From: a virus
DNA length: 42,514 bases
Direction: 5' to 3' (one strand)
Virus record (IMG/VR): IMGVR_UViG_3300049617_000019
Coordinates: 1 to 42,514 of that record
Positions within the stretch are counted from its first letter, which is position 1. Every line of letters starts with the position of its first letter. Positions 13,001 to 42,015 of the stretch are shown here, in pieces. The position numbers were made by a program, and so were the translations under genes. The notes beneath the pieces are model-generated. The model ran no database searches, was not told where the DNA came from, and saw only the letters and a program-made list of their open reading frames with translations.

Positions 13001-14270
13001 CGCCCCCTTCCTCGCCGCCCTCTCCGTTCATTCCTGCGGGTTTCTGCGCGCGGTTTTGGCGAACCTGCTCATACAGCAGGTCGCGGGCGATCTTTTGCCG
13101 AGCTTTCGCCTGCTTCTCGGCCTCCATCGTGGCCGCGCGGTCCCGCCGTTCATTCTCGGCCTCGGCCTCGGCGCGGGCGCGATCAAGGCTTAGAACGGCT
13201 TCAACTTCGGCGTCGAGCAACGCTATTTCGCGGTCGAAGGATTCGCGAGCGAGCGCGTCCTTGTTCGCGTTTATCTCTTGCGCCAGCTTGTAGTCAGCTT
13301 CATATCGTTTCTGATTCTCGGCTTCAATCTGCGCGGCGAGATTTGAATTAAACTGCGCTATTGTGCGCGCCTTATCTTCCTCGGCCTTGGCCTGAGCAGC
13401 GGCGAGCTTCTGAGCTTTGGCTAGCGCGGCTTCATCGCGCGCGGCATTCTCGGCGTCGGCCTCTTCGCGGATCGCTTCGGCTCGCAACACAGCTTGAACT
13501 TCCGCGTCGAGCGTCGCCATCTGCTGTTCAAAAGTTTCGCGAGCCGCAGCATCCCGCTGCTTGTTGATCGCAACCGCCTGCTTGTAGGCATTGTCTATGC
13601 GCTCGGCATCTTCTTCAACCGCCGCCGCGTAGGCCCTGTCGAACGCTTCGGCTTGCTTTGCCGCATCTGAGGCAGCCTTGAGCGTCGCATTGTGCTTCCG
13701 CACATTCTCATCATAATTCTCGTACGCTTCGCGGGCGACGGCGAGAGACTCAGAAGTCCTCTCGAACGTCTCGGCCAAACCGAGTTGAAAAGACTCAAGG
13801 TTTTTCGTGTCCGCGCCAACGGCCTCAAGCTTCTGTTGCAGCGTTGTCAGGCGTCCGGTCGCTCTATCAAACGCTTTCTGCGCGTTCAATACGCCGTTCT
13901 CGGCCGATTTCATGTCACGGGCGAAACCCTTGACCGCCGCAGCGGCCGTACCCTGCTTCGCCCGAAACGATTCTAGCTTCTCTTGCGCCTGTTGCAGTTT
14001 TTGGCTGGCAGCTTCTACAGCTTCGGATTGGTTCTTAAAGTTTTCCGCGAGCGCGTTTTGCGAAGCAAGAGCTTGTTGCGCTTTGGTCAGCTTGTCTATG
14101 GTCGTATAAAGCTCACCGGATTTGATTTCAGCTTTCGTGGCCGCTTCGGCTTGCAAAGTGAGTTTGGCCGAGAGGGCGTCTACCGAAGCAGCCACTTCCG
14201 CGAAAGGACGCGAGACGTTGTTCTTTGCGTCGAGCGTAAAGGTAGAGGTGCGCGAACTGTTACCCGCCAT
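10026..14270 (-). CDS. tail tape measure protein (gpH-like)
   Basis: 1414 residues. Residues 1-410 are almost pure coiled coil and include a tandem duplication of 98 residues (YKQAVAIN... from 229, YKLAQEIN... from 327). A Gly/Glu-rich linker at ~414-430 follows. Residues ~434-510 hold the TMP_2-type signature (LRPYELQELGYRIKDIIDQL, VIAQQG) and a hydrophobic segment at ~484-506. More coiled coil follows to a Gly-rich C-terminus. The protein sets tail length. At about 0.15 nm per residue the tail would be near 200 nm, less any processing. Its ATG overlaps the end of the frameshift product by 11 bases. One perfect copy of the dispersed 15-mer lies at codons ~36-40. Confidence 0.9.
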   Translation of the reverse strand: MAGNSSRTSTFTLDAKNNVSRPFAEVAASVDALSAKLTLQAEAATKAEIKSGELYTTIDKLTKAQQALASQNALAENFKNQSEAVEAASQKLQQAQEKLESFRAKQGTAAAAVKGFARDMKSAENGVLNAQKAFDRATGRLTTLQQKLEAVGADTKNLESFQLGLAETFERTSESLAVAREAYENYDENVRKHNATLKAASDAAKQAEAFDRAYAAAVEEDAERIDNAYKQAVAINKQRDAAARETFEQQMATLDAEVQAVLRAEAIREEADAENAARDEAALAKAQKLAAAQAKAEEDKARTIAQFNSNLAAQIEAENQKRYEADYKLAQEINANKDALARESFDREIALLDAEVEAVLSLDRARAEAEAENERRDRAATMEAEKQAKARQKIARDLLYEQVRQNRAQKPAGMNGEGGEEGGEGSEGGGPKGALGLRPYELQELGYRIKDIIDQLGAGSSITRVIAQQGAATASIFMREAGQLVAYLPIIGAGAAAVALLAAAFYRLNESARSLREFNAELMVSVDGAKYSADALVADQRAIQDLGNGFKESGDAIREFMEKGLRPDEFERFAKTATMVSRVYGTAFPEAVKETTAAFTGNYEAITKLDDKYDFLTAAQREQIRNLYEQGRGAEGAAMAFDLYSDKVDKAAKQADGPFAVALRDAKLALDLFLDDFNHWAGVDTLTTKLSSLTGTLQNLEARLKSYRQAASEVDPETGQSRDELKSNIEGQKAARARLEDMRDRAQRTGAPPQIQDNIKAQLAEVKANLRDLQGAYERVQRAAQAQGVASAAAAEKTAKGLGMATEAQRKQIADYLHDLQLEDEAREKNNSKARLDLAYKQAVEAAQAKLGTGTREQDLAAQKAGDIARAAEQERINEQLRRKEEGLQRELAGLVAEGDKSMTDSLQARLDAITERYSATYEKVKDLQARGGGRVPDGKGGSMSLDEFKAQEEANEQLLKQQEEMKFDEEELTKLTQQRDAALKQINDDVKAGNITGLQGYAAAQVEVAKIAPKIKQLADDALRFARNLGSAHAGPTLDAFVDKFNRAIGNDATKGTEAGGPVAKSGQELANTEIERANDIMKTRNDLQEAYGELVTKGIITEQEAETKLKANYAQTDAALQMAIKNAQDLVKALQAAGDTPELDLLAAKLAKIADSSKYVSKSAEEMNKEILKLGESSVNKGLEGITEQLGKVIAGTEKWGTALHGIVQAVGSMVSSFLMGIARILLKQQEEQAELMLLKALGLGTGAGSGVGGFFSSIFGGSSGAAESSGAGATDYLSEAEAAGVSHGGGLVEPVMGTTRLVHPSWFANAPRYHNGGMIGLAPNEQAAVLQHGEEVLTKSDPRNALNGGKGNSIAGQPQINMRHILVMDPDLIPQAMLSARGEETTMSHIKNNLPTLRQLLNVGGRRVGGS
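14152..14166 (-). repeat. dispersed 15-mer inside tape measure gene
   Basis: A perfect copy, TGCAAAGTGAGTTTG on the plus strand, lies about 26 kb from the intergenic cluster. On the coding strand it reads CAAACTCACTTTGCA and encodes part of AKLTLQA. A 13-of-15 copy follows at 14608-14622 in the chaperone gene. Confidence 0.9.
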
Positions 14271-14927
14271 CGTCCCGCAACCTTTCCAACGCCTCGTTTA
14301 GAATCTTGGAACCGGCAAAAATACTGCCGATGACCGCCTGCATCAAAACGGCTTCGGTCGAAGCCTTGTCAACATACCTTTCTCGTACCGTCCGTGCCTC
14401 CTGCCATACCATCCAAATCGGGTACAACCGAGCCGACTGGTGGCCCTCGGATAGCAAGAGAGATACGTCTCGCCTGATACCGTGGTAGTAGTCTTCGACG
14501 GTAGGCTTTTTTACTCTGCGGCGTTTGCCATTATGGCGGTCGACCTTTGCGCGCTTCTCACGATCGCTGCCATAATGGCCAATGCGTTTCCCGCGCCACC
14601 TACCGACTCAAAAGTGAGTTTGAGCGTCTTCTGTAGGCCGTCGAGCGCGACGGGCGCCGGCAATTTTAGTATCTGTTGAAACGCTTCCGGCTCATCGCTC
14701 GCAAGCGCCAACGCATGCGAACACAGCATCGGCGCGTCGTGTACGGCGGTAAGCAGGAAGTCTTGGTTCTGACCAAGCTCCTGCCACCTCGTGAGCAGAA
14801 TCGTCGCAACATTGAGGTGTTGCGATATCAACTCGGAAAGATCGTTCAAGGTCAGCCCGCGCACATAGAACGAGCCGCCCGTGAACTCAACTTCCGCTTT
14901 CTCCGGCCTAAAATCCGAAAGCGGCAT
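14260..14927 (-). CDS. tail assembly chaperone G-GT fusion by -1 frameshift (inferred)
   Basis: Inferred product of ~222 residues. The first 114 codons are read from 14927, the ribosome slips back one base on GGGAAAC, and 108 codons are read in the -1 frame to 14260. The -1 frame is open without a stop from the slip site through a basic linker (KRIGHYGSDREKRAKVD...) to VKKPTVEDYYHGIRRDVSLL and the GT-type helix YPIWMVWQEARTVRERY. Without slippage this second frame would have only an internal ATG at 14457 with no evident Shine-Dalgarno sequence. In lambda, gpG and gpGT bind the tape measure protein and the tube subunit during tail assembly, and only a small share of ribosomes slip. Confidence 0.75.
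14511..14927 (-). CDS. tail assembly chaperone, gpG-like
   Basis: 138 residues, MPLSDFRPEKAEVEFTGGSF and onward, mostly helical. Its position between the tail tube gene and the tape measure gene, its length, and the second overlapping frame that follows all match lambda G. It acts as a chaperone for the tape measure protein and is not expected in the mature particle. The stop lies 75 codon-lengths downstream of the slippery site, so most ribosomes would make this short form. The frame also contains the motif derivative CAAACTCACTTTTGAG about 16 bases upstream of the slippery heptamer. Confidence 0.85.
   Translation of the reverse strand: MPLSDFRPEKAEVEFTGGSFYVRGLTLNDLSELISQHLNVATILLTRWQELGQNQDFLLTAVHDAPMLCSHALALASDEPEAFQQILKLPAPVALDGLQKTLKLTFESVGGAGNALAIMAAIVRSAQRSTAIMANAAE
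14586..14592 (-). other. -1 ribosomal frameshift site GGGAAAC
   Basis: The heptamer G GGA AAC is in the correct register in the gpG-like frame (codons GCG GGA AAC GCA), matching the X XXY YYZ rule. Lambda uses GGGAAAG at the same place in gene G. Just downstream, GCCATTATGGC (on the minus strand) forms a small inverted repeat that could contribute to pausing. Slippage was not tested here. Confidence 0.8.
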
Positions 14928-16619: not shown

Positions 16620-17278
16620 CACACTGTTCCGTCAACACGCAAGGCGAACTGCCTGTAAAACTCGCTTTCGAGCGTGTCGGTCACATCGTCAAGCGCGCCC
16701 GCGTCGAGCGCGCCGACGAAAGCCTGTTTGACCGATGGGCCGTACAAAATGAACACTCCGGGATTGTCTTTCATTTCAAGTCCGGTGTTACCGAGGGTCC
16801 GGTGCGATAACACCTCGCCGTGTTCCAAACGTATTGCGAGGCCGACGTTGAAGCTGTCCGCCGAAACTTCATCCGGCCCTTTCTTGAGCCGAAGAAAGAA
16901 CGCGCGCCTGAGCGTGTGGGGCTTGCCAGGTTGCACCAGGAGGCCGACGTTATGGCGATCCCCTTTCTTGCCCGTCGGCTTCCAAATCGCCAAGCTTGTC
17001 GTCACGAAACGCGCCAGCGATGTCGGGCGTTCTCTGGCGCTGATAACCGTCATGAGATTATCGTCGCTTGCGAGGTTGTCGATTTCGATACGGCCCGGCG
17101 TATCCAGATAGCCGGCCGGAAACGCAACCTGCTTTTGAATTTCGGTCGGTATCGACTTCGACTGCGCTTTCTTGGCCGCAAAATTCAGCGCAATACGCAT
17201 GGCAGTCGTCGCCGCAGCGGGCGCCGCGTCGAGATACTTTTTGAAGCCGTCAAAGCTGTAGCTGACATTGACGCTCAT
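16619..17278 (-). CDS. minor tail protein, gpZ-like
   Basis: 219 residues. It begins with a helix containing AAPAAATTAMRIALNFAAKK, followed by VAFPAGYLDTPGRIEI, a central beta part, and the sequence GVFILYGPSVKQAF at ~185-198, a hallmark of lambda gpZ-type tail completion proteins (LYGPSVxQxF). It ends in a helix and DGTV. The role is completing the head-proximal end of the tail. It overlaps both neighbours by 3-4 bases. Confidence 0.75.
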   Translation of the reverse strand: MSVNVSYSFDGFKKYLDAAPAAATTAMRIALNFAAKKAQSKSIPTEIQKQVAFPAGYLDTPGRIEIDNLASDDNLMTVISARERPTSLARFVTTSLAIWKPTGKKGDRHNVGLLVQPGKPHTLRRAFFLRLKKGPDEVSADSFNVGLAIRLEHGEVLSHRTLGNTGLEMKDNPGVFILYGPSVKQAFVGALDAGALDDVTDTLESEFYRQFALRVDGTV

Positions 17279-17742
17279 CCTGCCATAACTCCACCGGAGC
17301 TACCGCCGCCTGTCGCCGCCATCATAAGAGACGCGAACAAGTCGGAAGTCGGATCGACTCTCGTGACGTTCCACGTCACGTTCACCGGGCCGTTGGCCGG
17401 AACAAGGCTGTCGAGAACGAACGCTTGCGAATAATCGGTAAGCAGAAAAGCGTCAACTTTCTTGAGTGTGATATCGTAAAGCGACAACTCACTTTGCGAA
17501 AAAACGAGCGTATCGACATTCTCGAAAATCTGCGCGTAACCGGCTGAATCAAGGTTGCCCACCTCGGCCATCATCTTGCCATGCCAACGTACGTGCAACG
17601 TGTTCGGGTTCGGCGTGTAGCTTCCTCCCGATCCCCCGGACAGGTACACGGCAGGCACAGCGAAAGCGGCGTGAACCGCCGCCCGCATAGATGCCCGCCG
17701 TTGGCCCCAATCCGGCAAAGGAAGGAAAGAGGCGCCGGACAT
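17275..17742 (-). CDS. head-tail connector protein (gpFII position)
   Basis: 155 residues. The N-terminus PDWGQRRASMRAAVHAAFAV is followed by NTLHVRWHGKMMAEVGNL and a strand-rich second half. Gene order (capsid, 144-residue gene, this gene, Z-like gene) is that of lambda E-FI-FII-Z, so this is probably the connector that binds the tail. Sequence similarity to FII itself is not evident to me. It carries a 12-of-15 copy of the dispersed motif at 17484-17498, encoding SQSELS. Confidence 0.55.
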   Translation of the reverse strand: MSGASFLPLPDWGQRRASMRAAVHAAFAVPAVYLSGGSGGSYTPNPNTLHVRWHGKMMAEVGNLDSAGYAQIFENVDTLVFSQSELSLYDITLKKVDAFLLTDYSQAFVLDSLVPANGPVNVTWNVTRVDPTSDLFASLMMAATGGGSSGGVMAG

Positions 17743-18179: not shown

Positions 18180-18208
18180 CGTAGAAACTCCAAAGTGACT
18201 TTGCGGAA

Positions 18209-19249: not shown

Positions 19250-19296
19250 TAGATTGCCCTTTCAAGCGGCGGTCAAAGTGAGTTGAGTCCCGTCGC

Positions 19297-20604: not shown

Positions 20605-21600
20605 TTCCATTTCTCCGTCGGGGTCATTGGGGTCTTCGTCTTCGTCGTCTTCGGCAGGGTCATCGTCCCGGCCACCGCCTTCGTTCGGATCGTCAGGCAG
20701 TAGGACTTTCATCGCCTGCATGAGTGCCGCACCGGCTGCCGCAATGCCGTCTATCAAACCGAGTTGAACCGCATCGGTCGGATTGTACATAGACGCTTCA
20801 GTGTTTCTCACGTCCTCCGGGTCCATGCCCCGATTTCGCGATACCGCCGAAACAAACATGCCATAAGCATTGTCGATATCTGCTTGCCACCTCGCTTTAG
20901 CTTCGTCGGAAAAGGGAACAAGCGGGTTGCTGTCAAGCTTGTTCGCACCTTTATAGACAACGTTGGCCTTAATTCCCATCTTGTCGAGCGCACCAGAAAA
21001 GTCCATTCGGACTCCCAATACGCCAATGCTACCGACTCCGGCAGTAGGAGTCGCATACATTCTTGTGGCCGAAGATGCAACATAATATGCAGCACTTGCC
21101 GCGTAGGCGTCAACCAAGGCCACGCTCGGCTTTGCGTCACGAGACGCGAACACCTCGGCCGCAAGCTCATCGCAACCCATGAACATCCCGCCGCCGCTAT
21201 TCACGTCGTACGCGATCATGTCAACGTCATCGTCGGCGAGTGCCGCACGCAACTGACTTTGAATGAAGTTGTACCCGGTGACATATCCGAATGAATATGG
21301 AAAACGATTTATGAGCATTCCCCAAACAGGAATGACGGCCACGCCCTTACCGGAGCGCGTTTGACCGAAGGCGAATGGTTTGTCGCTCGACGCGGCGACC
21401 AAACCATAGCTCGCTACGAGAAGCAGCTTGGTCGAAATGAACGCTTCGATTTCCGCCGTCACGTCGGCCTCGGCGAGCGCATGGAGCGCGTCAACCATGG
21501 CGGATCGCCCGTCACCCGCGCCGGCCGCAAAAAAGTCATCGGCTAGGATCGGCTTGGCTTGCAGTGATGCGGCAGCGAGAAGGGCGTCTTGCTTTGGCAT
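20179..21600 (-). CDS. head maturation protease, S49 family, with C-terminal scaffold (gpC-like)
   Basis: 473 residues. Residues ~85-295 are the S49/ClpP-like protease: GVAVIPVWGMLINR, SGGGMFMGCDEL and DAYAASAAYYVAS, with Ser169 as the likely nucleophile. Lys221 (KGANK) is 52 residues later, the same spacing as the Ser166-Lys218 dyad of lambda gpC. A very acidic linker at ~303-332 leads to a helical scaffold-like tail. Lambda gpC and scaffold Nu3 share the same C-terminus in this way. The protease cleaves portal and scaffold during prohead maturation. AAGGA precedes the ATG. Confidence 0.9.
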   Translation of the reverse strand: MPKQDALLAAASLQAKPILADDFFAAGAGDGRSAMVDALHALAEADVTAEIEAFISTKLLLVASYGLVAASSDKPFAFGQTRSGKGVAVIPVWGMLINRFPYSFGYVTGYNFIQSQLRAALADDDVDMIAYDVNSGGGMFMGCDELAAEVFASRDAKPSVALVDAYAASAAYYVASSATRMYATPTAGVGSIGVLGVRMDFSGALDKMGIKANVVYKGANKLDSNPLVPFSDEAKARWQADIDNAYGMFVSAVSRNRGMDPEDVRNTEASMYNPTDAVQLGLIDGIAAAGAALMQAMKVLLPDDPNEGGGRDDDPAEDDEDEDPNDPDGEMEMALTPEQKAARENVDAALTAERARVSGILNCEEAKQRPALAQFFATKTTMSVEDAQAALKVAAVETPSVAASGAAGASVTGAAGNLLDAAMTNTPASGVKVGAGGSNTETLSMAEQIMQAQDLATGTTSLSDHRKRRSAVS

Positions 21601-21602: not shown

Positions 21603-23219
21603 TTACGATCCTTCCGATGCCGCGTCTTGCGGAGGTGTCTGCGCGCCGAGTGGCCGTTTCGCCGTCAAAAGAAACTCAAGCTTGCCCTCGCGAATCATCT
21701 TCTGCTCCCGTATCGCTTGGCGGAACATTTCGCGGTAGTCGCCGCCGAGCTTGGAAATTTCCGCCTCGTACGTGCTCAGGCCCGACTGCACCTTGAGAAT
21801 CGCGGCTTGCGTTTCTTTCAATTCGTCAATCTGGCCGGCACCCGAGCCGATCCAAAGCGCTCGGCAAAACGCCTCTTTCATGAGCGGCATGTAGAACAGC
21901 GTCTTGTCGGCGCCGGGCGGCATCGGCAGACGACCTGCCATCCACTGTTCTTCAAGCCAAAGCGAATAAATTTCATTCGCCCAACGGTCGGCGACGATCT
22001 TCTTTTTCGCCCGCGTGCTCTTCTCTGTGTTCGCCGCCGAAGTGCGCGCCGAGCTATAGCTGACCTGGCTATAGTCGCGGCTCAATTCCTCGTAGCTCAC
22101 GCCCAAGCCGGCCGCGATGTGGCGCAAAAGGGAAGCCTCAAACGGCGCACCAACGCCACCAGGCGTGCCGATGGGTTTCATATTGAGCTTAGTGCCGGGG
22201 TAAAGATGGGGCACCTTGGCACCATCTATGGCAATGTTTTTGGCGCCCTCAAGGTAGCTGTTTAGGCCCGTCATATAGAGGCCATACAGGTCATTGAGGC
22301 CCGCGCCGACCGGTCCGTGGGCGTAGGCGCCGAGCGCCGTGGCCAGAACGCTGTCGGGCAACTCACTTTCGATTGCGGCGGCGTAGCTCGCATTTATGAC
22401 GGCGTTCTGCAAAACGATGTCTTGAAACTGCCGAGTCATGCGAAGCTGCTTAAGAACCGAAACCATGTCGGCGATGCCGCGCGACTGGTCGGGAAAAAGC
22501 TGCTCTTGGATGTGGATGAACTGGCGCCGGCCCCATTTCGTTTTCGCCGGAACAATTGTCCAAGTGTAATTGGAAGGCGACGGGTATAAAGCAAACTGGT
22601 CGCCGTTCCGGACCGCGTACTGAAGCGGCTTGCCTTTGTCGTTTTTGAATACGCCTCGCCGAAGGTTGTAGGTGTCTGCCCGGCCGTCGGGATTGCTTAG
22701 GCGATCCGGCGAGAACATGAGCGCGCACGTACGAAAAGGACGCAGCGGGTCCTTATCCCATTCGGCCGTGGCTGTGACCTCGCCCGACATACAAAAGCTT
22801 GCGACCGCCAAGCGACATTGTGAGGTAAAATCATTCACGCCGGCCGCGTCAAACCACGCATCGGGCGACATCGCTGCCAGCGTGAAGGCTGCTTCGGCCA
22901 CTTGCTGAAACTCGTCGGCCCATGCTTCCGAGGCGCCCGGAATGATTTGCCAGACAGGCGCCGCGCTCAGGCGATATTGGGCGCCGACAATCGAGTCGCG
23001 CAAAACGTTGACGGCGCCGAGGGCATAGCCGTCGTTTTGAACCGTGTCCCGTCCGCGCGCGTCGGCGGTCAGCTTGACAAGGTTTATTACGCCGTCGGGA
23101 TTTAGGAGGCTCGGATTCCAGCGCGCAGTTTCGCGGCTCGAAAACTGCGCGCCTTCGAGTCCGCCGCCGAAAGCCTCAACTTGCTTTGACGCTTCGTAAA
23201 CCGTTACTGCGGTTGTCAA
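21603..23219 (-). CDS. portal protein (gpB-like)
   Basis: 538 residues, lambda-type portal. Recognisable parts are DGYALGAVNVLRDSIVGAQY near 63-82, ADEFQQVAEAAFTLAAMSPD, the central GIADMVSVLKQLRMTRQFQD, and LGVSYEELSRDYSQVSYSSA followed by RTSAANTEKSTR. It forms the dodecameric DNA channel at one capsid vertex. The frame appears to start at TTG (23219), which overlaps the TGA of the gpW gene; no ATG lies near the N-terminus. The NCSA-like strings expected of the family are all present, so the gene is intact. Confidence 0.95.
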   Translation of the reverse strand: MTTAVTVYEASKQVEAFGGGLEGAQFSSRETARWNPSLLNPDGVINLVKLTADARGRDTVQNDGYALGAVNVLRDSIVGAQYRLSAAPVWQIIPGASEAWADEFQQVAEAAFTLAAMSPDAWFDAAGVNDFTSQCRLAVASFCMSGEVTATAEWDKDPLRPFRTCALMFSPDRLSNPDGRADTYNLRRGVFKNDKGKPLQYAVRNGDQFALYPSPSNYTWTIVPAKTKWGRRQFIHIQEQLFPDQSRGIADMVSVLKQLRMTRQFQDIVLQNAVINASYAAAIESELPDSVLATALGAYAHGPVGAGLNDLYGLYMTGLNSYLEGAKNIAIDGAKVPHLYPGTKLNMKPIGTPGGVGAPFEASLLRHIAAGLGVSYEELSRDYSQVSYSSARTSAANTEKSTRAKKKIVADRWANEIYSLWLEEQWMAGRLPMPPGADKTLFYMPLMKEAFCRALWIGSGAGQIDELKETQAAILKVQSGLSTYEAEISKLGGDYREMFRQAIREQKMIREGKLEFLLTAKRPLGAQTPPQDAASEGS

Positions 23220-23503
23220 AACAGGAACCTCATAGGACCAGGCCGATCCTCACAAGCGAGACGTGGGTTCGCCGCGGACTCAAGCTGACCGATAAGACCC
23301 TGAATATACTGGTAAAGATCGTTCCGGTTCGCCGAGGTGTATTGAATACGCTCGCCGTTCTGGTCAACGATCACCGAAGGCTGCTGACCAGTAACGAGCG
23401 CATGATACTGCGTCTGCGCGTCGGTCAACATAGCCTGCAACTGAGTTGTCGTGAACGTTCCAGGGAGCGGAGTTTGCCAAGGCGCTTGGCCGTACCACGG
23501 CAT
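23216..23503 (-). CDS. head-tail joining protein, gpW-like
   Basis: 95 residues. The second half contains DQNGERIQYTSANRNDLYQYIQGLIGQL, the gpW signature (Y(T/S)xANRxxLxxYI). It seals packaged heads and makes the site for FII-type connectors. The N-terminal ~25 residues (PWYGQAPWQTPLPGTFTTTQ) extend beyond lambda gpW, which has 68. AAAGGA precedes the ATG and includes the terminase stop codon, so coupling is likely. Confidence 0.9.
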   Translation of the reverse strand: MPWYGQAPWQTPLPGTFTTTQLQAMLTDAQTQYHALVTGQQPSVIVDQNGERIQYTSANRNDLYQYIQGLIGQLESAANPRLACEDRPGPMRFLF

Positions 23504-25668: not shown

Positions 25669-26149
25669 GAATAGACTCCATCATGCCATCCATGAGTGAT
25701 TTGACGGCCTCGCGTTGACGGTCCGTTAGCTCCGTCTCGCGCTCAAGGCGGTCGGCCGCTAGCTGGATTTCCATGCGTATAGTTTTGAACGCTTCACCAA
25801 CATAGTCAAGCACGCTCTGCGTGTTCCATAGCTCGCCCTCTTGCTCGCGGACCTTGAGGCGGTTTGACTGACCAATCCAGTACTCTTTCTTGAGCATCGG
25901 CGGCAGGTCCATATGGTTCATTCGCATGACCCGGTGTACTTGCTCTTCGGGAACAGGAACCAGATATTTGGCCACGTCTCTCAACAAGTAAGTTTTACGT
26001 TCCTCCCGCTTGCCGTGCGGTCGCACGTTCGCCACGCGATCCCGTACCGTGGCCGGGTTCATGCGGAACGCCCTGGCAATCTCTGACACCGTAAAGCCCC
26101 CGTCGAGCATTTCCTTGACGGGTTCGCTCATCAGTTTAGCGGCTGGCAT
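25559..26149 (-). CDS. terminase small subunit, DUF1441/Nu1-like
   Basis: 196 residues from MPAAKLMSEPVKEMLDGGFT. AGAGG stands 5-6 bases before this ATG, which is preferred over an upstream GTG at 26170. Residues ~17-45 are a helix-turn-helix (FTVSEIARAFRMNPATVRDR) for cos recognition. The remainder matches DUF1441: DVAKYLVPVPEEQ, DLPPMLKKEYWIGQSNRLKV, GELWNTQSVLDYVGEAFKTI. It binds cos and assists GpA. It overlaps the helicase stop by 14 bases. No cos site could be identified by eye. Confidence 0.88.
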   Translation of the reverse strand: MPAAKLMSEPVKEMLDGGFTVSEIARAFRMNPATVRDRVANVRPHGKREERKTYLLRDVAKYLVPVPEEQVHRVMRMNHMDLPPMLKKEYWIGQSNRLKVREQEGELWNTQSVLDYVGEAFKTIRMEIQLAADRLERETELTDRQREAVKSLMDGMMESIRANLTRIFAAKRRDPAGKPGGATEEFTTVQDAIRDL

Positions 26150-29185: not shown

Positions 29186-29194
29186 TTTGTCACA

Positions 29195-29662
29195 TCAAAA
29201 GGAAAGAAAAAATTCGAGTCGCCCCTGGTCGTCAAACTCCGGCCAGTAAGTTTTGAGAGCGCCGGCAAGCTCTGCAAAGGCTTTTTCCAGTGTCTCTCGT
29301 GCATCGCGAGGTATTGGCGTCAACATCGGCGAATCAGCCGCCGCTATGCCGAGCACATCCGAATGTGAAGCCGAAGGACCGACACCCGGCTTTTGCGTGT
29401 GAGCGTTGCGCTGCTGCTTAATGTCGAATATGGCAGCAGCCACGGCTTCTTCAGGACTGTACGCGTCGGCGTATTCGCTCGTAATTTTTCCGGTCTTGGC
29501 GTTTATGTGCGCAACGTTGCACCGCCAGAATTTCGGGTTGCCGACCTCGAACAGATTATTGACGATCCACCCCCACGCATGCACGTCCGCAATAAGCTCT
29601 TCAAGTGACTTGCCTCCGGTATCGACTTTCTTGATGTAGCTCTGAGCGTTCTTCTGCATCAT
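29195..29662 (-). CDS. hypothetical protein between polymerase and MTase genes
   Basis: 155 residues, unrecognised. The N-terminal half looks folded: GGKSLEELIADVHAWGWIVN, PKFWRCNVAHINAKTG, and YSPEEAVAAAIFDIKQ. A low-complexity stretch follows at ~85-112, and the end is helical. AGGA six bases before the ATG includes the polymerase stop codon, so expression is probably coupled with the polymerase. Confidence 0.65.
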   Translation of the reverse strand: MMQKNAQSYIKKVDTGGKSLEELIADVHAWGWIVNNLFEVGNPKFWRCNVAHINAKTGKITSEYADAYSPEEAVAAAIFDIKQQRNAHTQKPGVGPSASHSDVLGIAAADSPMLTPIPRDARETLEKAFAELAGALKTYWPEFDDQGRLEFFLSF

Positions 29663-29670: not shown

Positions 29671-31803
29671 CTAGTCTTTCCTGTAGTAAGGCGCGACGTA
29701 GCCCGCCGCATTGAGCGGAAGGCCGGGCATGCAGTCGATTGGCTGGCGCATATGATCTATCAGGCGGTCGAGCGTGTGATAGTTGTCACCTTTGCGGGTC
29801 ATCGTAATGTTTTCATCGTGCGAATGACCTACGATCTTGAAGCCGTCAGCGTGCGCGCGCTTCATGCCAATTGCGAAAACTTCGCGGGCGGTCGCCTGCG
29901 TCGCCTGCTCCATAAATCGACCGCCGTGCGTCGGAATGCGAATCCACTTTGTTCCATTCTGCTGCTTGCCCATATAGGACAAACCCATGCGCGTGTACGT
30001 TTCTTCCTCTTCGTATTCCTCGCCGATCCGGGCACCGTGCAGGAAGTAGTCCTGTTCGGTCTTGGCAATTTTGACAATCATGCGCCCTGTGTGAACGATT
30101 TCGCGCTGCATGCGCGGCTGATAGTAGTGAATGCAACGGCCGGTCGGCAAGCGCATGAGAAGGTAGGGCTTGCGGCGCAGGAAAGTGAGAAAACCGACTT
30201 TACGAGGCTTGCCCGTTGCCATGACATATGCAACAGCGTCCTCAATGACTTTCCACATTTCCGGAATCTCCGGGTACGTCACGCGATAGAGCTTCACGGC
30301 GCGGTGCGCTTGTTCGCGCGTCATATCAACGCCCATGTTCTCGGCGTAACCCCACAGGCCGGTTTTCTTTCCGTCGTATAGCTCGCCTCCACCTAATCTA
30401 TAGCCACATCCGAGCATGGGCGGCTTGCATATCTGGCGTTCATCCTTGGTTATTTCATCGTAAGCCTTCTGGTAAAATTCCTGCCCAAAGTCCTTATAGG
30501 GATCGCGTCCCGACCTCAAAACTTTCAGCAATCGAACACATTGGCACAGCCACGCAATAACCGCGGTTTCGATAGAGGAAAGATCGGCAACAACAAACTG
30601 GTCTTCCGGCTTTGCGCGAAATGCGCTCCGCACAGTGCCTACCACTGCCTCCATGACCTCGGGTACGAAAAGCGTAAGAAGGTCGTAATCTCCGCGACGT
30701 ATGATATTCGTGCATTCCGTCAAAACGTCTGCCGGTTCCAACTGACTTTTAGACAGAATCGGCGGCGTGCGGGTCAGGTTTTGAGTTTGCACAGCGCGGC
30801 CCGCCCACCGGGCTGTTCGCGACGCTCCGCAAAATTGAAACAGGTAACGCAACATGCCATCAGGGCCAACACGGTTCAATATCGTGTCGAACTTTTTCAC
30901 CGACAATCGAGCCTGCCATTGGCGAAGCTGCAAGACCTTGACGCACCACGGATCAAGGTCGCTCGGCTTTCCTTCGGCAACGCGAACGTTGTGAATAGCG
31001 AGAACCTTAGACACGCTGTCCTTGTTAAGATCGGCGAAGGGATAGCCGCGCTCGCGTATCCATGGCAAAAGTTGTTGCACGCTGCCAGGGTTCTGCAACT
31101 CGGTTATGTCGCGCATCTGCGCGGTAAGCTCGGCCCGGCGTCGGTTCGCAAACTCAATGGCGTTTTGCGTGAACGTCAAATCGACAGGCATACCCCTGTC
31201 ATTGATAATCTGGTCAATAGCGTAATAATCCCACTCGACCGCTGGCGTCGGGTGCTGGCTGCATCGAAATTCTATGCCGCGCTCGGCAACCACGTCTTGC
31301 TTGTTGTATTCACAAAACAATTCCCAATCCTCGGGATCGGTGTCATAATCCCGACGCGCGTGAGGCTGCTTCTTCGTTACTTTCTGCGGCATGCAGAAAA
31401 GCTGAATAAGCCTCTTGCCGTCTGACATCTTGCGTTTGTCGAACGGCAAACCGACTTGCTCGCCAACTTGCTCAAGCTTACCGAAGAAAGACTGCATGTA
31501 CGCGAGAACTTGGGTACACCTCCATCCTTCAATGGGCGACGGTATTTTGAGCGCGCGATTTGTCATGACGCGCTCGAATTGAGCATTAAACGCCCACTTC
31601 GTAACGGTGTGGTCCATCAAAGCGGCTTTCAGGTCGCGCGGAAATTCGCTATACCGGCGCTCCCAATGCTGCAACGTCTCATCGTCAAACTGATAGGCGC
31701 ACATAAAAATGTCGGCGCTCGGATCGCGCGAATAACGGTCAAGACCTACTCTGGTCAGGTCTAGGTCGCAATATCCTTCGTAATCCAGGCGCAATGTCGT
31801 CAT
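29671..31803 (-). CDS. DNA polymerase, family A (phage PolA)
   Basis: 710 residues. The 3'-5' exonuclease has exo I DYE (7-9), exo II NAQFE (73-77) and exo III YNKQD (166-170). The polymerase has motif A DLSSIE (407-412), motif B around RQICKPPMLGCGY (456-468) and motif C HDE (662-664). Motif A has SSIE where most phage relatives have SAIE. The expected role is replication of the phage genome with the PrimPol-helicase. Its ATG overlaps the TGA of the upstream GNAT-like gene in the recurrent junction GACGACCTATGA. Confidence 0.93.
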   Translation of the reverse strand: MTTLRLDYEGYCDLDLTRVGLDRYSRDPSADIFMCAYQFDDETLQHWERRYSEFPRDLKAALMDHTVTKWAFNAQFERVMTNRALKIPSPIEGWRCTQVLAYMQSFFGKLEQVGEQVGLPFDKRKMSDGKRLIQLFCMPQKVTKKQPHARRDYDTDPEDWELFCEYNKQDVVAERGIEFRCSQHPTPAVEWDYYAIDQIINDRGMPVDLTFTQNAIEFANRRRAELTAQMRDITELQNPGSVQQLLPWIRERGYPFADLNKDSVSKVLAIHNVRVAEGKPSDLDPWCVKVLQLRQWQARLSVKKFDTILNRVGPDGMLRYLFQFCGASRTARWAGRAVQTQNLTRTPPILSKSQLEPADVLTECTNIIRRGDYDLLTLFVPEVMEAVVGTVRSAFRAKPEDQFVVADLSSIETAVIAWLCQCVRLLKVLRSGRDPYKDFGQEFYQKAYDEITKDERQICKPPMLGCGYRLGGGELYDGKKTGLWGYAENMGVDMTREQAHRAVKLYRVTYPEIPEMWKVIEDAVAYVMATGKPRKVGFLTFLRRKPYLLMRLPTGRCIHYYQPRMQREIVHTGRMIVKIAKTEQDYFLHGARIGEEYEEEETYTRMGLSYMGKQQNGTKWIRIPTHGGRFMEQATQATAREVFAIGMKRAHADGFKIVGHSHDENITMTRKGDNYHTLDRLIDHMRQPIDCMPGLPLNAAGYVAPYYRKD

Positions 31804-32303: not shown

Positions 32304-33253
32304 AGGTCGTAAACGTTCTCTTGCAAAACTTCCATGCAGGCTTTAATAAACTCAGTTGCGACGAACGGGTTTATCGCATTGCCATAGGCGCGCAGCTTGC
32401 CCACGTCGGCGGGATTCCTTGCAGCCAACGGGAAAAGTCCGGGTTGAGTAGGCCGCGAGACTCCGTCGAGACATTTGATCCATTCAAGCTCGCGCCAGGG
32501 ATGACATGCGCGACTTGATTTTGAAGCTGCTCGCCCTTCGTCCCGCCGCCCCGTTCGCCATATGTCGAATGATTCGGCGTTCGATAGTCGCGCGCTGCCG
32601 GCGAAGCCCATCCGGCCGTAAGTGCGACCATCTGACTCAAATGGATTCTCGTTTCGTGTGGCCTCGCAACCTTCCCGCCCCTGCTGTGGTCTTGCGCGGT
32701 CGGCGTCGGCCAGCCAGAAACGCCGATGTCGGATGTTGGGAGCGGAGACGCCCGCTGACGCAAGTACCACATGCCCGACGTGGTAGCCGATGTGTTCCAA
32801 GTCACTTGATACAAGATCGAACCATAGACGGCCATCCGGGGAATCAACTTGTTCCCCAAAGATCGTGACAGGGCGTTGTTGTTCGACAAGCCAGAAAGCC
32901 GAAGGCCATAAGTGCCGCTCATCATCAAACCCGCCGCCTTTGCCTGCTTGGCTGAAAGGCTGGCACGGGCAAGAGCATGTCCACACGGGCCGGTCATCCG
33001 GCCACCCTGCCATGCGCAACGCCAAAGACCATATTCCGATTCCCGCGAATAAATGCACTTGATTGAAACCATCAAGATCGTCCGAACACAAGTCTTCAAT
33101 GCTGCGCCCGTCAACCTTGCCGCCCGCTATCAGGTCTTCGAATATCAGATTGCGAAGCCAACGCACGCAATATGAATCGTTCTCGCTATAGAAGGCGCGC
33201 GGGGCATTGCCGCCCCGCGCAAAGTCACTTGCTGTCACGCCACGGTTCGCCAA
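32300..33253 (-). CDS. DNA cytosine-5 methyltransferase
   Basis: Up to 317 residues. Motif I HLFAGIG (67-73), motif IV PCQPFSQAGKG (Cys97 is the nucleophile), motif VI-like GEQV and RHRRFWLAD of motif VIII are visible. The first ~60 residues (SENDSYCVRWLRNLIFEDLI) are a helper part seen in other phage Dcm-like enzymes. Start codons are poor: TTG at 33253, or GTG five codons in. The gene overlaps the previous one by 29 bases and has no clear Shine-Dalgarno sequence. It probably protects phage DNA from host restriction. No cognate endonuclease gene is nearby. Confidence 0.88.
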   Translation of the reverse strand: MANRGVTASDFARGGNAPRAFYSENDSYCVRWLRNLIFEDLIAGGKVDGRSIEDLCSDDLDGFNQVHLFAGIGIWSLALRMAGWPDDRPVWTCSCPCQPFSQAGKGGGFDDERHLWPSAFWLVEQQRPVTIFGEQVDSPDGRLWFDLVSSDLEHIGYHVGHVVLASAGVSAPNIRHRRFWLADADRARPQQGREGCEATRNENPFESDGRTYGRMGFAGSARLSNAESFDIWRTGRRDEGRAASKSSRACHPWRELEWIKCLDGVSRPTQPGLFPLAARNPADVGKLRAYGNAINPFVATEFIKACMEVLQENVYDL

Positions 33254-34076: not shown

Positions 34077-35435
34077 TCACAGGTTGTCCTGGCCGGTTTC
34101 ATCATCAAAACTGCTGTCTGCCAGGTCAACAGCAGGTCTTTTACCCGGCCCAATGGGCGCGAGAACGGCTTGCCCGGCGGCCACGTTCAGGAACGGGGCG
34201 AGCAATTCAGCGGCGCGTTTTTTCTTGACGCCGCCTATTTTAACTAGAGCTTCTTCGAGCTTGGCCGGGCTCAAGAACTGAGTTTCGTAAAGGTCTTCGG
34301 CGGGAACTCCGTATTGGCCCATGAGCCGAATGATGGCGCGACGTGCGGCGACGCTTCGAGAAACCCTTCCTTCGGCCAGCATGAAACGAGACAAAGTCTC
34401 GCCGGCCAGCGCGCGCTTGTGCAACTCTTTCCACATTTCCGCGAAAGACGATTCGAAGAGCTTGCGATAGGTCAACAAAGCTTCAAGCTGCGCCGTCGAT
34501 AAATGACCGACACGGAGGCGGGGCGCACCGAGCGCGTCGATATCAAGGCGGGCGAGACTCGCGGCCATATCGAATGTGGTAACTGTAACCGGGTACTCAA
34601 CCGGCTTTGCCGTTTCGTCGTCAAAAGTCTGGTCCGCGATGCGGTCGGCGAGCGCGACCAACGCCGCGCAACCCGCACGTTTGGCACGGCAGAAACGGCA
34701 CGCGGCTTCGCTCGGCACCCGTGGGGCGTCGGGCTGCCACCCGAGGGCCAGCTTGGCCTTTATCTCCCTCCCGTATTCCTTCAACTCACTTTTGGTCGTT
34801 TCCCAAACATCGAAATGGCCAAGACGCGGTTGCGCAATGCGGATCGTCACGCGGTCAATGTCGAAAATAAAATCCCACTCATCTATGACCCCGAGCGCGT
34901 ATCCCGCTTGCTGCGGGTTGCGATCTGCAAACACCTTGACGCCAGTGCCGTACTTCAAGTCGGTAAGGGTCAAGTGCCCGATTTCGAGCGCAATATGATC
35001 GGCGCGGCCCTTCTGGTTCGGGATCGGGGTGTAATTCGAAAGGTCCACAAGCTGCTCGACAAAGTGCATGCCTGGTAGCTCATTGCACCAATCGACGTAT
35101 TGTTGCACATACTCAACCATAGCGAGGGTGATTTTGACCTCGTGACCTTCCTGCAAGACCCGCGGCTGTAATTCGAGAAAGGCGTTCTCCGGCAAGACGC
35201 CACGCTCAAAGATGTCCTCGGCTACAGCGTGCGCCACAGTGCCCTCTGCGGCCTCGTAGCTGGCCTCATCGGGCAGCCCGATTTCGGCCAGCGTGCTGCC
35301 GGGGCAAGCGAGTTTGCGCGCCCAACCGGAAGCGCCGAACAGGCTGTGCCCGTTCGACTCTGCGTCCGCAAGCTGGTCTTCTGAAATCACTCGTGGGGCG
35401 CTTTCGGTGTGATGTGATGTTGCGAATTTGCCCAA
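34077..35435 (-). CDS. DUF2800 protein, Cas4-like PD-(D/E)XK nuclease
   Basis: 452 residues. The N-terminus (FGASGWARKLACPGSTLAEI, EAAEGTVAHAVAEDIF) and the core NQKGRADHIALEIGHLTLTD followed by LKYGTGVKV give the RecB/Cas4-type nuclease motifs: His in the first helix, Asp in GRADH, and D-x-K in DLKYG. A cysteine group (CRFCRAKRAGC) near residue 241 may help hold an iron-sulfur cluster. The role is likely in recombination or replication with the DUF2815 protein. The start appears to be TTG at 35435, as no ATG lies nearby. Confidence 0.85.
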   Translation of the reverse strand: MGKFATSHHTESAPRVISEDQLADAESNGHSLFGASGWARKLACPGSTLAEIGLPDEASYEAAEGTVAHAVAEDIFERGVLPENAFLELQPRVLQEGHEVKITLAMVEYVQQYVDWCNELPGMHFVEQLVDLSNYTPIPNQKGRADHIALEIGHLTLTDLKYGTGVKVFADRNPQQAGYALGVIDEWDFIFDIDRVTIRIAQPRLGHFDVWETTKSELKEYGREIKAKLALGWQPDAPRVPSEAACRFCRAKRAGCAALVALADRIADQTFDDETAKPVEYPVTVTTFDMAASLARLDIDALGAPRLRVGHLSTAQLEALLTYRKLFESSFAEMWKELHKRALAGETLSRFMLAEGRVSRSVAARRAIIRLMGQYGVPAEDLYETQFLSPAKLEEALVKIGGVKKKRAAELLAPFLNVAAGQAVLAPIGPGKRPAVDLADSSFDDETGQDNL

Positions 35436-36841: not shown

Positions 36842-39313
36842 GTGGGCATACCATCTGCTTCCGCGCCAATGCTGCAATGGGCATTGCGCTACGCCAAAAT
36901 CGGGATGTACGTATTCCCGCTCAAGACCTCCGGCGACCTGAAGCGGCCACATGGCTGCCTGGGTGATGAGAACGGAGGGCACCTCAAAGCAACTTTGGAT
37001 GAGGCAACGATTCGCGCTTGGTGGCGGCGACACCCGACGGCCGGCATAGGCGTCAATCTGGCTGCGTCGGGCCTCATCGCCATTGACGTAGACACGCGAG
37101 AGGGCGGCGAGGCCAAGCTCGCAAAGCTGGAACGCCTGCATGGTGCCCTGCGCTCGCCCGTGCGCGCGATCACTGGCGGCGGCGGATCGCACATCTTGTT
37201 CGCGGCGCCGGAGGGCATCCGTCCGCCTGGCAAGGTAGGGGGCGAGAAGGGCCTTGATTTGAAATACAACGGCTACATTGTGGTCGCACCTTCGCCGCAC
37301 TGTGCCGGCAAGCCACCTACGCCTACCGGCAAGACCTATAAGTGGGCGTCGGGCGCCGATCCGTTCGATAACCTCACCCTTGTCCCGCTCGTGCCCGAAT
37401 GGGTGCTGGTACGCACTCCTGGCAAGAGCGTCGCGGTCGCCGGTAGGCCCGACGATGATGACCCTTTTTCGGGCGACTCGCCGAAGGCCGGATTATCGCT
37501 AGACCAAATATCCGACATGCTCGACTTGGTAGACAATTCAGGCCCCGGTTTGAGCTATGATGACTGGCTAAACGTGCTCGCGGGCATCTGGCATGAGACT
37601 GACGGGTCCGCCGAGGGCGAATCCCTAGCCAGAGAATGGTCATATTTGAGCGCGAAGCACGACGAAGAGAAGTTTGCTAGGTCCTGGCGCAGCCTCAACC
37701 ATGAGGGCACTGGGCGACCTCCTATGACAATTAGGTTCCTGATAAAGCTCGCATCGGCTGCCAAGGCCGAGGCGTCGGGCGCTGCTTTGGCCGAAATCGA
37801 AAGTGAGTTGGACACCGTTTTCTCGGTTTCCGAGTTGAGAAAGATTTGCGAGCGCATCCGAACGCTGGAATTGGACACGCTTGATCGCGGTCGCATCCGG
37901 GCCATGGTCCAAAAAGTCTACAAAACCGTGACCGGCGTGCCGCTCGCCGCCGTCGAAGCGAAGAAGCTCACTCGGTTCGAAGACCAGAACGAACGGAAAA
38001 TGCCGGAGTGGATGAAACGTTACACTTTCATTGCAGTTGAGGACAAGCTCATTCGGGAAGGGTCACGACACGGCATAACCCGGCAGGCATTCGACGCGCT
38101 GCACAACAAGCACATGCTCACGTTCGATCAAATCCGCGACGGCGTAGGGTTTCCCGATGTGACCGCCAGTCACGCGGCGCTCAATCTGCACAACATTCCG
38201 CGCGCCGACCGCCGGATGTATAAACCCAACGAAGACCGAATTTTCTATTTCAATGGCGATATGTGTTTTAACACGTTCTCGACCGAAAGCCAGCCACCTA
38301 TTCCCGACCGCTACTCGAAACGGGATTTGACCTGCATTGCGATCCTCGAAACTCACTTTGCGCATCTGGTGCCCGACGACCGGGAGCGCGCCATTTTCAT
38401 TTCCTGGCTCGCGTGGATCGTGCAGACGCAAACCCGGCCTAATTGGGCCGTCGTAATCCAGTCGCCGGAGGGCGAGGGAAAGACGTTTTTCGCAAACCTC
38501 ATGGGCGCAATCCTCGGCGCCGAGAACGTGCAAGTGCTGGATACCGCCGTGCTCAGGGGGGATTTCACCGGATGGGCGCAGGGCGATCTGCTGAAAGTCG
38601 TGGAGGAAATCAAGCTGCACGGTAGCTCGCGGTATGACGTGTTGGACAAAATGAAAGCCTACGTGACGAATGAGGCGATCACGGTTCACCCGAAAGGCCA
38701 GGAACCTTTTACGTGCGCAAATACGGCCGGGTATCTCATGTTCACAAATCACCGGGACGCCCTGCCACTTCACGCGAATGATACCCGGTATTTCATGCTC
38801 GCGTCGCCACGGCAACACAAAACCGAGGTTGACGCCTTCCTTGCCGAAAACCCAAGTTACTTTGACAATTTGTTCCAAATCATCGGCGATGCGCCCGGTG
38901 CTTTGCGGAAGTGGTTTTTGCAATACGCGCTCCATCCTGAATTTCACGCCAGCCGCCGGGCGCCGAAGTCGGCCGAACGGGAATACGTGGCAAAACTCGG
39001 AAAGTCTGAAACCGAAGAACGTATTCAGGACATTCTCGCCGAACAGCGTCACCCCGCTTTGTCGGCGGAGCTTATGAGCGCAACGCTGTTGGCCGAACAC
39101 CTGATGCGGGATGACGGCGAATGTCCGCGAACCAACGTCATGGCCGGATTGTTGACTAAACTCGGTTTCAGATACCTTGACCGAGTCAGGCTTGCGGCAC
39201 GCAACGAAAGGTTCTGGTCAAAGAAGCCGAGCCTGTTCAAAACGACTTCTCCCAAAGAACTCGCGCGGCGCATTCGCGACCACATCAAGGATCGCATGAC
39301 CGAAGGGTTGTAA
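36842..39313 (+). CDS. bifunctional primase-polymerase / superfamily 3-type helicase
   Basis: 823 residues from GTG. Residues ~12-190 are a PrimPol domain: YAKIGMYVFPL, HPTAGIGVNLAASGLIAIDV with catalytic DVD at 82-84, and GGGGSHILF with His117. Residues ~220-310 resemble PriCT_2 (YDDWLNVLAGIWHET, FARSWRSLNHEGTGRPPMTI). The C-terminal half is a DUF5906-type helicase: Walker A SPEGEGKTFF near 541, Walker B DLLKVVEEIK, sensor GYLMFTNHRDALPL and Arg finger DTRYFML. It likely opens the origin and primes synthesis. The GTCCC repeats start directly after its stop. One near-perfect motif copy is at 38349-38361. Confidence 0.92.
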   Translation: MGIPSASAPMLQWALRYAKIGMYVFPLKTSGDLKRPHGCLGDENGGHLKATLDEATIRAWWRRHPTAGIGVNLAASGLIAIDVDTREGGEAKLAKLERLHGALRSPVRAITGGGGSHILFAAPEGIRPPGKVGGEKGLDLKYNGYIVVAPSPHCAGKPPTPTGKTYKWASGADPFDNLTLVPLVPEWVLVRTPGKSVAVAGRPDDDDPFSGDSPKAGLSLDQISDMLDLVDNSGPGLSYDDWLNVLAGIWHETDGSAEGESLAREWSYLSAKHDEEKFARSWRSLNHEGTGRPPMTIRFLIKLASAAKAEASGAALAEIESELDTVFSVSELRKICERIRTLELDTLDRGRIRAMVQKVYKTVTGVPLAAVEAKKLTRFEDQNERKMPEWMKRYTFIAVEDKLIREGSRHGITRQAFDALHNKHMLTFDQIRDGVGFPDVTASHAALNLHNIPRADRRMYKPNEDRIFYFNGDMCFNTFSTESQPPIPDRYSKRDLTCIAILETHFAHLVPDDRERAIFISWLAWIVQTQTRPNWAVVIQSPEGEGKTFFANLMGAILGAENVQVLDTAVLRGDFTGWAQGDLLKVVEEIKLHGSSRYDVLDKMKAYVTNEAITVHPKGQEPFTCANTAGYLMFTNHRDALPLHANDTRYFMLASPRQHKTEVDAFLAENPSYFDNLFQIIGDAPGALRKWFLQYALHPEFHASRRAPKSAEREYVAKLGKSETEERIQDILAEQRHPALSAELMSATLLAEHLMRDDGECPRTNVMAGLLTKLGFRYLDRVRLAARNERFWSKKPSLFKTTSPKELARRIRDHIKDRMTEGL

Positions 39314-39559: not shown

Positions 39560-40146
39560 GCCCAAGTCACCCGTTTTCTGTAAATAATTGACGCAACCAT
39601 TGATAAGCAACTAATTTTTGTTAACTATTGCGGCAATTTCAATTACACTATTTGCAATGATTGATTTGTCTCACAAATGAGACGCAACTGTTGCTATTTT
39701 AGGTTAATGTCAACTACTTTTCGGTTGGTAGCCGTACACTATAGCCGTCTTACGGCCTATTGGATGGCACCTATACCTGACTTCCGACCGTGAGTTAGTA
39801 CCATCGTACGGGGCTCAGCGCCCCCACCCGCAATTATTGACTCTTGCAAAGGACCCAAACGCCTATTGGGATCGCTAAATAGTGCGCCACGCAATCGCTA
39901 ATGCAACGCAGATTGCGAGGACGCATCCCATTAGCCCGTCTAGATCGGTCGCCCATTAGGCCGGGCAATAGACCTGGCTGCACTCAAGCAACGTGAGAAG
40001 TTGGCTCAAACTCACTTTGCATGCATGCACGCACAATCGTATGAACCCGTTACGGCATAACGTTACGTAACAAATTTCTCATAATTCATGATTTGTTCTT
40101 TTATCGCCACGCGCGCGCGTACACCCGTGCGAGGGCGCGGGCTTGT
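39560..40146. other. non-coding AT-rich region
   Basis: No gene is supported on either strand. Positions ~39575-39720 are much richer in A+T than the rest of the window, as expected of a DNA unwinding element. They contain the inverted repeat GTCTCA-CAAA-TGAGAC (39668-39683) and GACGCAAC twice. TTGACG followed by CTAATT could be a rightward promoter near 39588, but is weak. From 39721 on, short repeats occur (TAGCCGT twice at ~39729-39750; GTTACG/CGTAAC near 40050-40070), and a perfect dispersed 15-mer lies at 40007-40021. Confidence 0.5.
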
Positions 40147-40166
40147 GCAAACTCACTTTGCGACCG

Positions 40167-40269: not shown

Positions 40270-40590
40270 GTGTAAATCCGTGTAAAGATCGATCAAGCCC
40301 AACGCTATGTAACGTTGCAGTCAATTCAAAACTTTGCAGCGTAAAGCTCAGGAAACAATCGGTCGCCATAGAAGGCCGCAGAGAGGCTTGTAAAGTCTGC
40401 TTGGTATGATCCCAAGCCGGCGCCGCTGACCGGCCTGTACGGTCAGGCCAGCCCGTTCTGACGCATGGTCAAACTCACTTTGCACTCGGCCGTGTAAAGG
40501 CTGGCAACGTGGTCTAACGAATGCGATTGTATGCCCATGCGGACAAAAGAAAGCCCGGCTTGCGCCGGGCTATGTCAAACTCACTTTGCA
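40270..40590 (-). repeat. duplicated intergenic element, copy 1
   Basis: It aligns through its length with 41715-42004. Shared blocks, in plus-strand order, are TGTAAAT...TGTAAAG, ATGTAAC inside a hairpin (stem CAACG/CGTTG here), GGCTTGTAAAGTCTGC, GGTATGAT, GCCGGCGCCG, AGCCCGTTCTGACGCA, GGACAAAAGAAA, the terminator hairpin and CAAACTCACTTTGCAGG. It follows the gene ending at 40602, and no gene is visible to its left. Function is unknown. Confidence 0.7.
40543..40571 (-). terminator. rho-independent terminator
   Basis: Leftward reading: AGCCCGGC / GCCGGGCT, 8-bp perfect stem with a 4-base loop, then TTCTTTTGT. It ends the transcript of the small gene at 40602-40925. The 15-mer TGCAAAGTGAGTTTG lies immediately before the stem. 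Confidence 0.85.
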
Positions 40591-41095: not shown

Positions 41096-41096
41096 G

Positions 41097-41624: not shown

Positions 41625-42015
41625 TGCGAGGACTCCGGTTTGCGAGGCGGGTTTGCCTGCCATCCATTTAGGCGAGCCGAATTGAGTTTGCAATCCCTAC
41701 GTGTCACGGATTCCGTGTAAATTTGTTGTAAAGTTTGCCGCGCGCGATAGCGCGCTAAGTGAGTTTGGGCATATGTAACATGCCAGTAAAATGCAAACTT
41801 GCGGGGTAAACACTAAAGAATTCAACAACCCTCTAGGACGGCCGTACAGCGGCTTGTAAAGTCTGCCCGGTATGATTGAGTGCCGGCGCCGTTCCCCTGG
41901 CTGTACGCCCATCCTAGCCCGTTCTGACGCACCCTCGGCCGGTCAGCCGGACAAAAGAAAACCCGGCTTACCGCCGGGTTTCTCGACTCCAAACTCACTT
42001 TGCAGGTCCGACCTA
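41625..42015 (-). other. intergenic control region with duplicated element copy 2
   Basis: Copy 2 of the intergenic element is at 41715-42004. Its hairpin around ATGTAAC has stem GGCAT/ATGCC, different bases from copy 1. Additional features are the palindrome CACGGATTCCGTG (41705-41717), the hairpin GCGCGC-GATA-GCGCGC (41740-41755), and motif copies at 41753-41767 (13 of 15, reverse orientation) and 41990-42004 (perfect). TTTACA hexamers on the minus strand could be -35 elements, but no good -10 follows. It should contain the promoter of the genes at 40602-41624. Confidence 0.6.
41951..41980 (-). terminator. rho-independent terminator
   Basis: Leftward reading: AACCCGGC / GCCGGGTT stem with a small loop, followed by TTCTTTTGT, nearly the same as the terminator at 40543-40571. 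It stops the transcript from the 145-residue gene. A perfect 15-mer lies between the gene end and the stem. Confidence 0.85.

Follow-up and report, generated by a model that had tools for sequence, protein, structure and literature searches.

Results

The window, the whole 42,514-nucleotide stretch of viral DNA analysed here (IMG/VR record IMGVR_UViG_3300049617_000019), is placed by its terminase, portal, capsid, tail, DNA polymerase, exonuclease and primase genes as an incomplete BcepNazgul-like Casjensviridae siphophage. Its TerL is at most about 60% identical over its full length to anything found, and megablast gave no nucleotide match to the window in the phage collection. The record is 42.5 kb long, compared with about 58 kb for complete relatives, and comparison with the BcepNazgul gene order shows that the plus-strand early region is absent from it. 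Our subject is a 15-bp motif repeated along this DNA. We conclude that it is real, and that it is one dialect of a short dispersed near-palindrome, which in the window takes the 13-bp form CAAASTSASTTTG; the core common to different phages is AASTNASTT, with clade-specific flanks.

With up to three mismatches allowed, the 15-mer has 16 matches in the window, where 0.99 would be expected; none of the shuffles gave as many. The 9-mer AACTCACTT is present 19 times (0.2 expected) and AASTNASTT 41 times, compared with 3 for the reversed pattern, used as a control. Coding DNA holds 32 of the AASTNASTT sites, where 1.84 were expected and 100 synonymous-codon shuffles gave at most 6; the motif thus survives a codon-preserving shuffle, which a sequence-only reading of this DNA had named as a refutation test. 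The same reading had proposed that non-coding DNA is over-represented, and this is borne out by a moderate excess (9 of 41 sites, 2.4 expected). It had also listed five perfect 15-mers, a 14-of-15 copy at 40148, 13-of-15 or near copies at 14608, 38349 (38348 in our scan) and 41753, and shorter cores at 17486, 19274, 22360, 24431, 27342, 34783, 37800 and 42109; all are present, with starts within 1-2 bases of those it gave. Scanning with a position weight matrix (PWM) yields 46 sites (Table 1), and the range of the motif reaches left of 14152, to about 2.8 kb.

Such repeats might be put down to chance, to codon bias or to one segment having been copied recently. Two perfect copies, at 40576 and 41990, do lie near a duplicated 95-bp segment (40371-40465 and 41837-41931, 78% identical), with shorter matches of 37 and 29 nt around them, and may share descent, as their surroundings suggest; three weak sites, near 2794, 2923 and 3052, fall in a 129-bp tandem repeat. 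However, the sites outside these duplications are scattered and have unrelated flanks, their positions are conserved in relatives, and the shuffle and codon-shuffle controls refute this explanation, which we regard as next to impossible. Similar terminator-like hairpins (40540-40566 and 41948-41984) adjoin motif copies.

When 65 related loci were searched for k-mers without bias, dispersed 13-bp palindromes emerged in relatives, in several dialects: GGAAGTWACTTCC in one group, GGAACTWAGTTCC in phage G002 and mixed forms elsewhere; many of the loci gave no motif in this search. The exact 15-mer of the window is not common to its relatives, and in viral contigs it gave 68 single matches, about the chance level. 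In most relatives the sites are exact palindromes around one central base; the asymmetric sites of the mycobacteriophage L5 type that had been proposed thus give way to near-palindromes. Over whole records of relatives, AASTNASTT counts range from 0 to 73, BcepNazgul having 18 sites when the strict core is counted and 29 with the PWM; the densest genomes have some 40-70 sites at intervals of roughly 0.9-1.3 kb. The window's dialect, AACTCACTT/AACTCAGTT, also occurs in G035, a record of 56 kb that carries a ParB-like gene. Carli has a new dialect of its own, GGAAAYSRTTTCC, with 30 perfect copies and none in 11 other records. Two ParB-encoding phages without the standard array carry other repeats, CTCTAGAGA (9 copies, G037) and TTTGCnGCAAA (5 copies, G038), which are possible further dialects.

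The sites are kept between relatives far beyond neutral expectation. At 69, 77 and 90% nucleotide identity, 12 of 13, 17 of 19 and 58 of 60 sites were retained, compared with about 0.7, 2.4 and 26 expected. Conservation of position, a check that the sequence-only reading had put forward, is therefore seen even at the lowest of these identities.

The presence of the motif is linked to one gene family. Among 26 near-complete relatives, split by site counts only into 13 with at least five sites and 13 with at most two, we screened the 32 families present in at least four motif-bearing phages. The sole perfect tracker was the Nazgul29 family, annotated as ParB-like, which is found in 13/13 motif-bearing and 0/13 motif-lacking relatives; the next best family scored 7 and 1. 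Because Nazgul29 had been noticed ahead of the screen, this result confirms the ParB-like family rather than discovering it. On a TerL tree the motif and the gene change together, in about four changes by parsimony, at least two of them forced by starred branches, so that the 26 records are not independent and the Fisher value for the split (2e-7) overstates the evidence.

The screen also bears on immunity of the mycobacteriophage stoperator type, in which a small helix-turn-helix (HTH) repressor, such as the product of the gene at 36506, would bind the sites. There are dozens of dispersed sites with a subclade-specific consensus, as in Cluster A (PMC6550527); AH2 and three relatives have a tyrosine recombinase; and AH2 has CI-like and Cro-like genes (PMC3483164). 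However, the 36506 family occurs in 10/13 motif-bearing and 12/13 motif-lacking relatives, and its product was rejected as the binder. The sites, moreover, are palindromic and unoriented, the asymmetric AACTCACTT copies of the window running 8 with transcription and 11 against it. Integrase-like genes are confined to the sparse AH2-type group and the densest-array phages have no integrase match, implying that the densest arrays occur in phages without sign of integration. We consider this type of immunity quite unlikely. What stands of the earlier stoperator-like proposal is a genome-wide set of short protein-binding sites under selection, whose binder may be encoded beyond the window; the asymmetry, the orientation bias and the 36506 product do not stand.

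Of nine large Casjens-type records to which the ParB-like gene alone led, six carry arrays: R16L (25 sites), G039 (29), G040 (33), G035 (18), G036 (21) and Carli. In five named isolates that lack the gene, 0-1 sites were counted. Every near-complete record that we examined and that has the motif thus also has the gene, but the gene does not always come with a recognisable array. Two of the densest-array phages have a second, divergent ParB-like gene (G005:61634-63232 and G012:1757-2428).

By profile and predicted fold, the ParB-like protein is placed with Spo0J/ParB, Noc and KorB. Its profile matches are to Spo0J (5.5e-10), Noc (8.7e-10) and KorB (3.7e-5); in AH2 the HTH_ParB domain scores 35.2 bits, against a cutoff of 22.6; and Foldseek with the predicted model gives E values of 1e-8 to Noc and KorB, including the KorB-KorA-DNA structure. 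GxxR (GHRR/GHTR) and N..RPLTP.E sequences align with the GERR and EN..R regions of ParB, and binding of cytidine or another nucleoside triphosphate (CTP/NTP) and clamp closure are putative activities of the protein. In alignment A1 its C-terminal tail is acidic and of low complexity and closes with a hydrophobic residue (DL, GL, SL), recalling partner-binding tips.

A ParB-family protein would also suit the partition centromere (ParABS) of a plasmid-like prophage, and N15 and RK2 are known to have centromere sites that are dispersed (PMC3235114). Against this, a ParA-type ATPase (PF13614) was found in 0/14 records, and 20-70 evenly spread sites far exceed described centromeres; we judge a centromere to be as improbable as stoperator immunity. 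Overall, the best-supported family for the binder is ParB/KorB/Noc-like, not the mycobacteriophage-type repressor.

Palindromes also accompany ParB-like genes in other lineages. In Milano and contigs L264-L278, all encoding a ParB-like protein, CAAATnATTTG and TAAATnATTTA have a TTGAC-like element on one side and a TATA-like element on the other, and L264-L278 and L252:42974-49093 have them between TTGAC-like and TATAAT-like elements near the ParB-like genes. From their position in the spacers of sigma70-like promoters, they are likely to be operators. No tiling was seen in Milano, RG-2014 or BS5, which represent other families with a ParB-like gene, and the four promoter-spacer palindromes among them are all in Milano; no array was found on plasmid pPNAP01 in the 12.7 kb surrounding its ParB-like gene. 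The palindromes in promoter spacers suggest that such sites serve as promoter operators in other lineages and have spread over the genome in the Casjens-type branch, a direction of change that we infer.

The sites are more evenly spaced than random placement would make them in G012 (coefficient of variation 0.45) and G022 (0.38; both P<2e-4), in Carli, G016 and R16L (P<0.001) and in the window (P 0.006). Most lie mid-gene, in all three codon phases and without enrichment at gene starts; non-coding DNA is over-represented several-fold, and convergent gaps hold sites as often as divergent ones. Apart from that over-representation, this arrangement favours the main rival to silencing, in which the same protein and sites have an architectural output, a nucleoprotein that condenses, tethers or shields the DNA in the manner of Noc or chromosomal ParB. 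Noc being among the best sequence and fold matches also speaks for it. However, no condensation of DNA in vitro is seen with KorB-CTP (PMC11790492), whose fold matches equally well, related palindromes sit inside promoters in other phage families, and the non-coding excess points the same way. We regard an architectural output as possible, at odds of about one in three.

Table 1. Motif sites along the window, scored by PWM; dot, no strand given.
Feature	Position	Strand	Basis
site, in 129-bp tandem repeat	2793..2807	.	PWM 15.9
site, in 129-bp tandem repeat	2922..2936	.	PWM 15.9
site, in 129-bp tandem repeat	3051..3065	.	PWM 15.9
site CTAAACTGAGTTTGA	3660..3674	.	PWM 19.5
site	5460..5474	.	PWM 16.1
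site	6443..6457	.	PWM 16.2
site	8027..8041	.	PWM 15.7
site	9362..9376	.	PWM 17.1
site	10936..10950	.	PWM 14.8
weak site	13775..13789	.	PWM 12.3
perfect copy CAAACTCACTTTGCA	14152..14166	-	15-mer match + PWM
13/15 copy	14608..14622	-	15-mer match + PWM
weak site	16656..16670	.	PWM 11.8
site ACAACTCACTTTGCG	17484..17498	+	15-mer scan + PWM
site CAAAGTGACTTTG	18190..18204	.	PWM 19.3
site	19273..19287	.	PWM 18.2
weak site	20754..20768	.	PWM 12.7
site	21248..21262	.	PWM 17.8
site	22357..22371	.	PWM 15.8
site	23436..23450	.	PWM 15.5
site	24428..24442	.	PWM 16.7
site	25088..25102	.	PWM 13.9
site	25983..25997	.	PWM 13.9
site TAAACTCAGTTTG	26725..26739	.	PWM 18.7
site GAAACTCAGTTTG	27377..27391	.	PWM 18.7
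site	29176..29190	.	PWM 17.8
site	29600..29614	.	PWM 15.2
weak site	30189..30203	.	PWM 11.1
site	30737..30751	.	PWM 18.4
site	32346..32360	.	PWM 15.9
site	32796..32810	.	PWM 16.1
site	33219..33233	.	PWM 16.1
weak site	34273..34287	.	PWM 11.6
site	34780..34794	.	PWM 17.2
weak site	36984..36998	.	PWM 11.6
site	37798..37812	.	PWM 17.8
13/15 copy GAAACTCACTTTGCG	38348..38362	+	15-mer match + PWM
site	38851..38865	.	PWM 16.6
weak site	39156..39170	.	PWM 12.1
perfect copy	40007..40021	+	15-mer match + PWM
14/15 copy	40148..40162	+	15-mer match + PWM
perfect copy	40470..40484	+	15-mer match + PWM
perfect copy, near partly duplicated segment	40576..40590	+	15-mer match + PWM
13/15 copy	41753..41767	-	15-mer match + PWM
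perfect copy, near partly duplicated segment	41990..42004	+	15-mer match + PWM
site	42107..42121	.	PWM 16.9

Other features of the window include the tandem repeat itself, a unit of about 129 bp present three times at 2763-3259 (83 and 73% identity) within a tail-fibre-like gene (1931-3649). In the gap after the primase gene, at 39312-39544, are nested inverted repeats, ATGTCCCGAGTAGG / CCTACTCGGGACAT, with arms about 180 nt apart, a possible replication or cos-proximal element. The product of 31800-32303 has weak similarity to Mom-like DNA modification proteins, and methyltransferase-like genes lie beside it (32300-33253 and 27945-28586). That the window encodes such genes would fit the idea that a DNA-modifying enzyme of the phage, such as a methyltransferase, recognises the motif, but a 13-bp palindrome that is degenerate and varies at its centre is unlike a methyltransferase site, and the gene-family screen showed no methyltransferase family that tracked the motif, making this highly improbable.

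Discussion

The dispersed sites under selection, their dialects in relatives and the presence/absence linkage with the ParB-like gene together suggest a KorB-like silencing clamp that acts genome-wide, a reading to which we give a probability of about 0.5. An orphan clamp of the ParB/KorB/Noc family, encoded by the phage lineage itself in its early region, would bind and load at the near-palindrome; in the window phage the gene would sit in the missing early region of about 15 kb. Some 40-70 sites would load the clamp along the whole genome, and by analogy with KorB it would slide from them to cover essentially all of the phage DNA, damping or timing transcription genome-wide. KorB, once loaded at its operator, silences promoters by sliding as far as about 1.5 kb (PMC11790492); with a site each 0.9-1.3 kb, a clamp of equal reach could cover the whole genome. 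A broader version, to which we give slightly less than an even chance, is that the clamp acts as genome-wide chromatin: an evenly spaced lattice of 40-70 sites, mostly in coding sequence, would coat the genome during infection for silencing, compaction or protection, and site and protein specificity would have drifted together into dialects.

Several points weigh against the silencing clamp. No ParB-like gene was matched in the window, a record without the early region where relatives carry that gene. Three ParB-encoding Casjens-type phages (G037, G038 and W03) show no clear array, AH2-type relatives have just 5-13 sites, and the evenness of spacing in BcepNazgul is not significant (P 0.13). 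Summed over the Nazgul-like phages, 12 sites fall in sigma70-like promoters, where about 6 are expected; with so few there, and mid-gene placement without a bias to gene starts, simple promoter repression is not the main use of the sites. The model of the ParB-like protein is of moderate quality (mean predicted local distance difference test, pLDDT, 69). Finally, direct binding is a step that we infer, and so are sliding that depends on NTP, the silencing that would result and the presence of the gene in the window phage.

Phages and plasmids commonly carry ParB-like genes without ParA; a 2025 survey describes these orphans as largely unexplored in function (PMC12704722). Our analysis names candidate DNA targets for the orphan ParB-like proteins of one phage family and, because these include the cultured phages BcepNazgul, Carli and R16L, makes their function testable. 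If the silencing clamp is correct, this would be, as far as we know, the first case of a phage genome covered from one end to the other by ParB-type loading sites, and its dialects would form a set for studying the evolution of ParB specificity. We found no paper describing these repeats in the open-access literature. The ingredients are known, namely ParB-family proteins, dispersed operators, stoperators and dispersed centromeres; as far as the open literature shows, the novelty lies in an array that evenly tiles whole phage genomes, forms dialects and has no ParA.

Among known systems, the nucleoid occlusion protein Noc has many short palindromic sites (NBS) spread over the chromosome. The phage protein resembles Noc in profile and predicted fold, whereas the phage sites differ in sequence and are on the phage genome. 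Prophage N15 has few sites and a ParA partner, unlike the phage system, which has no ParA in the 14 records. As the phage system probably does, N15 and plasmids with dispersed centromeres have ParB-family sites scattered along the replicon, in N15 within a phage genome (PMC3235114). Stoperators of the L5 type share with the phage system many short dispersed sites, largely outside promoters, and in Cluster A tens of such sites have a consensus that drifts between subclades (PMC6550527); they are, however, asymmetric, follow the direction of transcription and are bound by the repressor of a temperate phage, whereas the phage sites are near-palindromic, unoriented and linked to a ParB-like protein. 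The fullest comparison is with KorB of plasmid RK2, a ParB-family CTPase clamp and repressor with dispersed OB operators. Both have the ParB fold, predicted in the phage protein, with an HTH; both have short palindromic operators dispersed over the replicon, promoter-associated in some relatives of the phage system; and the phage spacing is comparable to the 1.5-kb sliding range of KorB. KorB operators lie near or in promoters, an arrangement that is clear in Milano and L264-L278 and holds for a minority of sites in Nazgul-like phages. The phage system differs from KorB in being phage-borne, in its operator sequence and in having 20-73 sites, evenly tiled and mostly within genes, without ParA.

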